This document shows positions 54,449 to 56,400 of a stretch of 64,000 nt of DNA, one piece after another; the first letter of the stretch is position 1; each line of letters starts with the position of its first letter. Source of the DNA: Mucilaginibacter sp. JRF (GTDB taxonomy: Bacteria; Bacteroidota; Bacteroidia; Sphingobacteriales; Sphingobacteriaceae). The stretch lies in contig NZ_JADFBY010000001.1 of the NCBI RefSeq assembly GCF_015223065.1, positions 1,178,001 to 1,242,000 of the forward strand. The letters are read 5' to 3'. The translations under genes and the position numbers were made by a program. The notes beneath the pieces were generated by a model that did no database searches, was not told the DNA's origin, and saw only the letters and a list, made by a program, of their open reading frames with translations.

Positions 54449-55060
54449 ATGATCGATAAAGGCGCAGTACTCCCCTTGTTTTATCTACCACCGGTATCAT
54501 ACTTTACACAATTTAATAAGTATAAGCCCGATGTATGGATAGAGCGTGAGGAGCATTTCCCGAAGCAAACCTATCGTAACCGCGCCAATATATACTCGCC
54601 CGATGGTGTTTTAAGCTTGGTGGTGCCTGTTATTAAAGGTTCAAAAAAACATACTAAAATAAAAGATGTACGCATTAGTTATGATTTTAACTGGCAGCGT
54701 TTACACTGGATGAGCTTGCAGGCTTGCTACCGTCGTTCGGCTTATTTTGAATATTACGAGGATGATTTCTCGCCGTTTTACGAGCAAAAGATCGAATACC
54801 TGTTCGACTATAATCAGCAAGTGCTGGAGCTGATACTAAAGCTGCTGAAAATAAAAACCGATATTAAGTTCACTGAAAGCTATGAGGCGCAATATCCGGA
54901 CGTTGCCGATCTGCGTGATAGCATCCACCCTAAAAAAGGATTGATCACGGATAATAAACCATATTTTCAGGTATTTGAGGAGCGTAATGGTTTTGTACCC
55001 GATCTGAGTATTGTCGACCTGCTTTTTAATCAAGGGCCGCAAGCACAGTTGTACTTGTAA
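54449..55060 (+). CDS. WbqC-family protein
   Basis: 203 residues from ATG 54449; TTG 54428 is in frame but less likely. The WbqC-like core is clear: GAVLPLFYLPPVSYFTQFNK, DVWIEREEHFPKQTYRNRAN, LVVPVIKGSKKHTKIKDVRI and WQRLHWMSLQACYRRSAYFE. WbqC proteins occur in polysaccharide gene clusters, probably acting on sugar nucleotides or amines; a catalytic role is not established. It is divergent from the LpxL/GT2 pair. Confidence 0.88.
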   Translation: MIDKGAVLPLFYLPPVSYFTQFNKYKPDVWIEREEHFPKQTYRNRANIYSPDGVLSLVVPVIKGSKKHTKIKDVRISYDFNWQRLHWMSLQACYRRSAYFEYYEDDFSPFYEQKIEYLFDYNQQVLELILKLLKIKTDIKFTESYEAQYPDVADLRDSIHPKKGLITDNKPYFQVFEERNGFVPDLSIVDLLFNQGPQAQLYL

Positions 55061-55084
55061 GCATATTATTTATCATAAAACAAT

Positions 55085-55115
55085 TTTGCTTTTGCTAATT
55101 TTATTAGCATTTTTG
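55085..55115 (+). promoter_or_regulatory. Polymerase promoter with palindromic operator in the spacer
   Basis: TTTG at 55085-55088, exactly 19 bases, then CATTTTTG at 55108-55115 (one mismatch to the -7 consensus). The perfect palindrome TGCTAA-TTTTA-TTAGCA occupies 55093-55109, between and touching the boxes, so a bound repressor would block initiation. The GTG start lies 4 bases after the -7 box. The palindrome plus T-run could also act as the WbqC terminator. Confidence 0.6.
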
Positions 55116-55119
55116 TTTT

Positions 55120-56400
55120 GTGAATCAAAACTCCATAGAGGCCCGGACAGAAGCGCGTGTACTGTTTATTGATATGAACAGCTTTTTCGCGCGTTGCGAG
55201 CAGCAGGTAAACTACTGGCTGCGCAACCGCCCTGTGGGGGTTTGTGTGTACACTGGTAAATATGGTTGCGTGATCTCCCTATCAACCGAGGCTAAGGAAC
55301 GCGGCATAAAAGCCGGTATGCGCCTGAATGATGTAATGGCTCAATGCCCTGATTTTATCCCGGTAGAAAGCAACCCTACCCACTACCGCGATTTCCATAA
55401 AAAGATAATAAACGTTGTACGTAATTATTGCAATGATGTGGTACCCAAAAGTATTGATGAGGCCATTGTTAACCTCACCCATTACGACCATACCACGCCC
55501 TTTGAAATTGCCAAACAGATACAGCATGATATTTTAAACAAGGTAGGCGATTGGCTTACCTGCTCTATAGGTATTGCGCCTAATGCCTTTTTGGCTAAAC
55601 TGGCATCGGTACAAGGAAAAAAACGTGGTGGCCTGGTAATGATAACGCCCGATAATATTGATGATATCTTACGCCCGTTAAGACTTGGCGATCTGCCCGG
55701 CATAGGCAACAATATGAGTTACCGGCTGGAACGTAACGGCATTAAAACACCGCTTGAGATGCGCTATGCTACCCCGCAAAGGTTAAAAGCCATATTTAAA
55801 AGTATTGATGGTATTTACTGGCACTATCGCCTCAATTTTATTGAAACCAATATTGTGGCGCATGATTACCGAGGCATGCAGGCCATGCGACAGATTTCTG
55901 CTGAGAAGCGTAAGAATATTGAGTATATCGACCAATTATTCATGACCTTGTGCCTTACGTTGGAGAAACGGATGGTGCATCATAAGTTTTATTGTAAGTC
56001 GATTGGTTTTACTGCCCGCTATGAGGATGATACACGTTGGGATGATGCCTTTACCATTACCACACCCGTACAGGACGCTGTTAGCCTGATGCGCATGATA
56101 CGCCTGCGAATAGATAAATTCCGTGAGAAAACAGGATGCGGACCAGTGCTGAATACCTACGTTACCCAAATGCGTGTAGCCGTTACCAATTTTGTTGACA
56201 ATGGCGATATGCTGTACAGCTTGTTTGAAGATATGGAGCAAAAACAAACCGCCCTGAAAACCATGCACGCCATTAAAAGTAAATTTGGTGCCGATAAGCT
56301 GGTGCGCGCTGTTGAAATGACCGACGGCAAGGTGATAAAAGATGTGATAGGATTTGGCTCGGTAAAGGACCTTACCGATCTGGATTATAAGATGGTTTAG
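55120..56400 (+). CDS. Y-family DNA polymerase (DinB/UmuC-like)
   Basis: 426 residues, GTG start at 55120. Palm motif VLFIDMNSFFARCEQQ (Asp18), second carboxylates in PKSIDEAIVNL (Asp113, Glu114), then CSIGIAPNAFLAKLASVQGK, helix-hairpin-helix LPGIGNNMSYRLERNGI and the little-finger domain. The S-I-D-E motif is intact, so it should be active. It copies damaged templates at the cost of fidelity; no umuD-like gene is adjacent and no beta-clamp motif was identified with certainty. The -33/-7 spacer holds a palindrome, as expected for damage-inducible control. Confidence 0.92.
   Translation: MNQNSIEARTEARVLFIDMNSFFARCEQQVNYWLRNRPVGVCVYTGKYGCVISLSTEAKERGIKAGMRLNDVMAQCPDFIPVESNPTHYRDFHKKIINVVRNYCNDVVPKSIDEAIVNLTHYDHTTPFEIAKQIQHDILNKVGDWLTCSIGIAPNAFLAKLASVQGKKRGGLVMITPDNIDDILRPLRLGDLPGIGNNMSYRLERNGIKTPLEMRYATPQRLKAIFKSIDGIYWHYRLNFIETNIVAHDYRGMQAMRQISAEKRKNIEYIDQLFMTLCLTLEKRMVHHKFYCKSIGFTARYEDDTRWDDAFTITTPVQDAVSLMRMIRLRIDKFREKTGCGPVLNTYVTQMRVAVTNFVDNGDMLYSLFEDMEQKQTALKTMHAIKSKFGADKLVRAVEMTDGKVIKDVIGFGSVKDLTDLDYKMV

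Follow-up and report, generated by a model that had tools for sequence, protein, structure and literature searches.

Within the window, by which we mean the whole 64,000-nt stretch of Mucilaginibacter sp. JRF DNA that was analysed, the gene of a Y-family translesion DNA polymerase lies 59 nt downstream of wbqC and in the same direction. NCBIfam DinB/UmuC models also match the polymerase, every one of them under its cut-off, and the nearest relatives are those of Mucilaginibacter sp. UR6-1 (94% identity) and M. limnophilus (89%). We take GTG 55120 as the start codon because it is the sole ATG, GTG or TTG between an in-frame TAG (55105-55107) and the catalytic motif FIDMNSFF. Ahead of this codon the sequence runs TTTG, 19 bases, CATTTTTG and a further 4 bases, and the gap between the two promoter elements holds a palindrome with 7-bp arms and a 3-nt centre, which includes the dyad CTAA-TTTTA-TTAG (55095-55107). 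Upon re-checking, the positions given in the original prediction for these elements, the palindrome and the GTG were all correct. Its description of the palindrome as exactly filling the spacer was right about location but not about extent: 15 of the 19 bases are covered, and the final CA serves as the first two bases of the -7 box. The box itself departs from the TAHHTTTG consensus by a C in place of T at -12. A promoter scan of 54800-55400 found no classical sigma-70 promoter.

Table 1. Features of the polymerase locus, the putative repressor gene and the genes behind the 15 TRCTAA-N5-TTAGYA sites of the same genome (G, C and L numbers are our handles for genomes, contigs and loci)
Feature	Position	Strand	Basis or remark
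-33 element TTTG	55085-55088	+	sequence; TTG conserved there over 42 operator-aligned promoters
Operator TG-CTAA-TTTTA-TTAG-CA (putative; Bacteroidetes non-canonical LexA)	55093-55109		motif recurrence; published CTAA-N5-TTAG
-7 element CATTTTTG	55108-55115	+	consensus TAHHTTTG (available text of PMC6847099), one mismatch at -12; 2 bp common with operator
GTG start codon; predicted transcription start at first base (probably leaderless)	55120-55122	+	4 nt past the -7 box
Y-family translesion DNA polymerase, 426 aa (site target)	55120-56400	+	Pfam IMS PF00817 (4e-38), IMS_C
CI-type HTH_3 + S24 putative repressor gene (site target)	G000:C4:92797-93567 (L057:1168-1941)		HTH_3 PF01381 (4.8e-13), Peptidase_S24 PF00717 (1.2e-9)
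Two umuDC operons (site targets)			in one, operator and umuD separated by a 72-aa ORF
dinB (site target)			PRK02406 above cut-off
recA (site target)
imuA-like gene (site target)			behind a 102-aa ORF; ImuA model under its cut-off
SRAP gene (site target)
PA0069-family radical SAM gene (site target)			labelled splB-like
UDG-linked radical SAM gene (site target)			TIGR03916
tcmP behind site	C5:54156		not a recognised repair gene
ORFs without recognised function behind sites	C3:117543, C4:222510, C7:30084
Site with no gene found behind it	C1:71124

The exact dyad TGCTAA-N5-TTAGCA occurs six times in the 4.9-Mb genome of the strain, against none for a reversed-pattern control, and allowing G or A at the second half-site position (TRCTAA-N5-TTAGYA) gives 15 sites against 1. 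Genus-wide, 751 sites were counted against 141 for the control in 61 genomes, with an excess in every one of the 61. In a search of 21 genomes of relatives, the exact motif was found 44 times against 6 for the control across 13 genus genomes, one of which (G007) has none; the count in eight genomes of other families was 0, which says little since the control there was also 0. Inside the window, tolerating two mismatches brings the number of matches to 7, against a shuffle mean of 4.94 and with 26 of 100 shuffles reaching 7; this is chance level, and therefore only the exact site is meaningful inside the window. The pattern TNNTAA-W5-TTANNA (52 against 37 in the strain's own genome) was uninformative. 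One-mismatch sites lie upstream of dprA and of radA, which we do not claim as targets because the corresponding search of this genome (33 against 11) makes many such sites background.

SOS or repair genes, core SOS genes among them, stand behind 10 of the 15 sites (Table 1). The original prediction had pointed to lexA, recA and umuDC-like genes, and the genome scan agrees with it, finding recA, two umuDC operons, dinB, an imuA-like gene and an S24 repressor gene. The PA0069-family protein is here called splB-like, a label of our own based on its relation to COG1533.

Several individual sites have features of their own. Two operators flank one umuDC operon (L009:2064-3990 and L066; G000:C11:121661 and 123789), one standing before the 72-aa ORF that leads into umuD and the other before the SRAP gene after umuC. 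The gene tcmP (TIGR04474, three-Cys-motif partner; L063:1501-2366, G000:C5:54156) has an operator and a perfect TAATTTTG box abutting its ATG, and an exact operator precedes a reading frame of roughly 200 aa for which Pfam gave no match (L007:3463-4101, G000:C7:30084), where TATTTTTG ends 3 nt before the ATG. Operators also stand ahead of two small proteins, one of 86 aa in this genome (L061:1543-1803, G000:C3 near 117585) and one of 117 aa from a different genus within the family (L234:1526-1880), which have in common a similar DPxxxQWYxPEE stretch; neither gave a Pfam hit, nor the former an NCBIfam hit, and we list the pair as a candidate new SOS protein.

Four S24 proteins are encoded in the strain's genome: two UmuD-like proteins, a CI-type protein and one further protein. 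Pfam scans at E 0.001 detected a LexA DNA-binding domain in none of the four. The CI-type protein joins an HTH domain to the S24 domain, and its gene has TACTAACAATTTTAGTA in its own promoter, 12 nt before the ATG. It retains the residues expected for self-cleavage (A106-G107, S143 and K182), and among 30 repressor loci, this one included, the Ala-Gly bond, the GDSM serine and the YKR lysine are kept in all, as is an operator 10-13 nt before the start codon (28 located by script, 2 by eye). Orthologs with 79-89% identity are present in 56 other genus genomes out of 61 searched; the four genus genomes in which no close ortholog was found are all incomplete (58-83%). A search against solved structures gave matches to the HTH domain only. 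As for the remaining S24 proteins, both UmuD-like proteins show the S24 domain alone in Pfam, with no HTH, and were rejected as the repressor, and the fourth protein (L059, C2:502500) was not taken as the regulator because its locus has no exact CTAA-N5-TTAG site.

Conservation of the promoter was followed in two overlapping sets of relatives. A close polymerase ortholog is present in 22 of the 61 genus genomes, own genome included, and the operator precedes all 22, with a gap to the start codon of 9-11 nt in 20 of them, 14 nt in one and 30 nt in one. Of 67 polymerase loci in a wider homolog search, 41 have the operator near the start and 26 (30-59% identity) lack it there. In 25 of these no operator lies within 200 nt, whereas one distant homolog (L136, 53% identity) has two operators farther off, 123 and 146 nt ahead of the polymerase. 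In another relative, the polymerase gene is represented by two overlapping frames, apparently through a frameshift (L088, G054:C1:672116-673401). The window locus and the 41 others make a set of 42 promoters, whose counts are not independent events because several of the loci are the same contigs as in the close-ortholog set and all are related. The operator ends 9-12 nt before the start codon in 41 of these promoters and 30 nt before it in one; the start codon is GTG in 32 and ATG in 10, and an in-frame stop within 21 nt excludes any other upstream ATG, GTG or TTG start in 32. The -7 box reads CANNTTTG in 35 of the 42, with C for T at -12 in most orthologs, and its distance to the start is 4 nt in 30 promoters, 5 in 7, 3 in 4 and 6 in 1, all within 3-6 nt when boxes are located by a loose pattern that admits a degenerate one (AATTTTAA, L125) and one ending in A (L098). 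The promoter with the 30-nt operator gap (L120) nonetheless has a TATATTTG box ending 4 nt before its ATG. Ahead of the gene, the best conserved columns are those of the operator, the -7 box and the -33 TTG. On the upstream side of the operator this TTG (1.68, 1.09 and 0.92 bits) is the most conserved block once the single adjoining base is set aside; within the 14 nt before the operator, 37 of the 42 promoters have TTG and 20 have TTTG.

The same arrangement was sought elsewhere as a composite pattern, CTAA-N5-TTAG-NANNTTTG-N3-6-RTG, which gave 97 hits against 1 control hit in the 61 genus genomes, with at least one hit in 57; because the pattern was written after the promoters had been seen, this count describes the layout against a control and does not amount to an independent prediction. 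Among the 15 sites of the strain's own genome, the layout fits three (the polymerase, one umuD and the PA0069-family gene), and the dinB, recA, SRAP, imuA-like and repressor sites fall outside it. The 49 composite loci inspected (37 of the 97 genus hits, 4 from two further genus genomes and 8 from outside the genus) comprised 25 at splB-like genes, one of them outside the genus, 8 at the polymerase, 6 at UDG-linked radical SAM genes and 1 at umuD, with 9 left without a gene assignment (2 in the genus and 7 outside); these four gene types account for 39 of the 41 genus loci. Outside the genus, 290 genomes yielded 8 hits of the pattern, distributed over 7 of them, and 13 control hits (counted by eye). 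The layout there is background for that reason, with the exception of one genome from another genus of the same family (G205, one of five genomes of that genus), in which it is found at a splB-like gene and at a small protein.

We read the palindrome as the SOS operator of the chromosomal CI-type HTH + S24 repressor, a non-canonical LexA, and give this reading, drawn from sequence comparison, a probability of roughly 0.9. A repressor dimer would sit on CTAA-N5-TTAG inside a sigma-ABfr promoter. There it would overlie the greater part of the spacer together with the edge of the -7 box, and so exclude RNA polymerase from the polymerase gene. Upon DNA damage, RecA filaments would trigger self-cleavage of the repressor at Ala106-Gly107, as we infer because the cleavage residues are conserved, and the freed operator would then allow the translesion polymerase to be made. 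The transcript would most likely begin on the start codon itself, giving a leaderless mRNA, since the -7 box ends 4 nt before the GTG.

Among well-studied Gram-negatives, a leaderless message that starts on GTG is uncommon. The -7 element TAHHTTTG of Flavobacterium johnsoniae spans -12 to -5 and stands 4 or 5 nt from the transcription start in the available text of PMC6847099, and applying this distance here would place the start on the G of the GTG or one base later. We therefore lean towards a leaderless polymerase message, and the leaderless GTG start of the original prediction is backed by the -7/start geometry conserved in related promoters. The operator part of our reading is also compatible with transcription mainly from a promoter farther upstream, for example together with wbqC, in which case the mRNA would be leadered and the -33/-7 match incidental. 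The co-directional wbqC would through co-transcription produce just such a leadered form, the -7 box departs from consensus by its C at -12, within the regulon the layout is confined to 3 of the 15 sites, and leadered messages predominate in the phylum: in the available texts of PMC6847099, PMC9723704 and PMC7366714, Bacteroidetes transcripts are mostly leadered and leaders of 10 nt or less a minority, with figures of 13% of analysed transcripts with leaders of at most 10 nt, 5.5% leaderless and about 3.7% under 10 nt. Nevertheless, wbqC adjoins upstream in just 6 of the 42 loci, and the succession of TTG, 19 bp, CANNTTTG, 4 nt and start codon is still kept; moreover, of the 48 ORFs in the window that reach 150 aa, only the polymerase and one other have a [CT]AHHTTTG box placed 3-6 nt ahead of a possible start. 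We consider the farther promoter unlikely to be the main source of the message.

Far less probable is that the bound S24 protein activates transcription after damage instead of repressing it. The main text of PMC8565304 leaves this formally open, stating that activation cannot be discarded without data from a non-cleavable mutant, but the operator also sits in the repressor's own promoter, and at the polymerase it overlaps the spacer and the -7 box, where a bound protein should block rather than recruit RNA polymerase; steric repression is favoured on account of this overlap. Equally implausible is the alternative raised in the original prediction, that the palindrome is an intrinsic terminator of wbqC, for although it is an inverted repeat lying 32 nt past the wbqC stop with five T residues immediately after it, its stem has only 2 G-C pairs instead of being G+C-rich, its folding is no better than that of shuffles (z -0.49), a terminator scan did not call it, 36 of the 42 loci keep it with no wbqC upstream (up to 2 kb examined; 172 bases at one locus), and it recurs ahead of SOS genes.

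If the palindrome is indeed the operator of the S24 repressor and the message leaderless, a subset of Mucilaginibacter SOS genes would be built as compact modules in which operator, -7 box and start codon are fused in about 30 bp, these being the Y-family polymerase, the PA0069-family and UDG-linked radical SAM genes and, in the strain's own genome, an umuDC operon. Derepression would then yield a leaderless mRNA, mostly with GTG at the polymerase, independent of leader-dependent initiation, a mode possibly favoured in damaged, stressed cells, and the GTG together with the off-consensus -7 box would keep the mutagenic polymerase low; we regard the chances of this wider proposal as evenly balanced. 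A literature search, judged by title, found no such promoter description for Mucilaginibacter, nor a paper joining leaderless mRNA, the SOS response and LexA in Bacteroidetes. The analysis thus supplies the base-level promoter anatomy of a known, little-studied SOS system, and, should the mRNAs be leaderless, would connect leaderless translation with the SOS response in a phylum that lacks Shine-Dalgarno sequences.

The point of reference for the system as a whole is P. actiniarum, presumably a Pontibacter. Its CI-type HTH + S24 repressor binds CTAA-N5-TTAG in EMSA and its predicted target genes are induced by mitomycin C, according to the main text of Sanchez-Osuna et al. 2021 (PMC8565304), which places the motif upstream of umuDC, recA, recN, dinB, ruvB, splB and other genes in Bacteroidetes and names Sphingobacteriaceae as one of the families whose regulons are large. 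For the window site, a LexA-like repressor acting at a non-classical box had been anticipated, and rightly so, although both the repressor and the box were already published there; this kind of system is known. From canonical LexA (E. coli CTGT-N8-ACAG), which is likewise an S24 repressor on SOS promoters and from which the same working is expected, the system differs in its box, the window site reading CTAA-N5-TTAG in place of the classical sequence, and in its DNA-binding domain, the S24 proteins of this genome being without the LexA domain in Pfam. The leaderless mRNAs described in the available texts for F. johnsoniae, F. psychrophilum and B. thetaiotaomicron resemble the predicted polymerase message in that their start codon coincides with the transcription start expected from the -7 rule; they are a minority of transcripts in those species, whereas the layout here marks a small set of repair genes, mostly with GTG at the polymerase. 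With the regulon of PMC8565304, as its main text presents it, the window site agrees letter for letter in motif and spacing, the targets umuDC, dinB, recA, splB, SRAP, imuA, the UDG-linked system and the repressor itself are held in common, and the repressor has the same architecture (HTH_3 + S24, Ala-Gly bond, Ser-Lys dyad). The terms "leaderless", "start codon", "transcription start", "RNA polymerase" and Mucilaginibacter do not occur in that main text. The motif described here is longer (TRCTAA-N5-TTAGYA) and is positioned both within a -33/-7 promoter and against the start codon, and the fusion of operator, promoter and start codon, with the leaderless GTG message that it predicts, is likely the new element.
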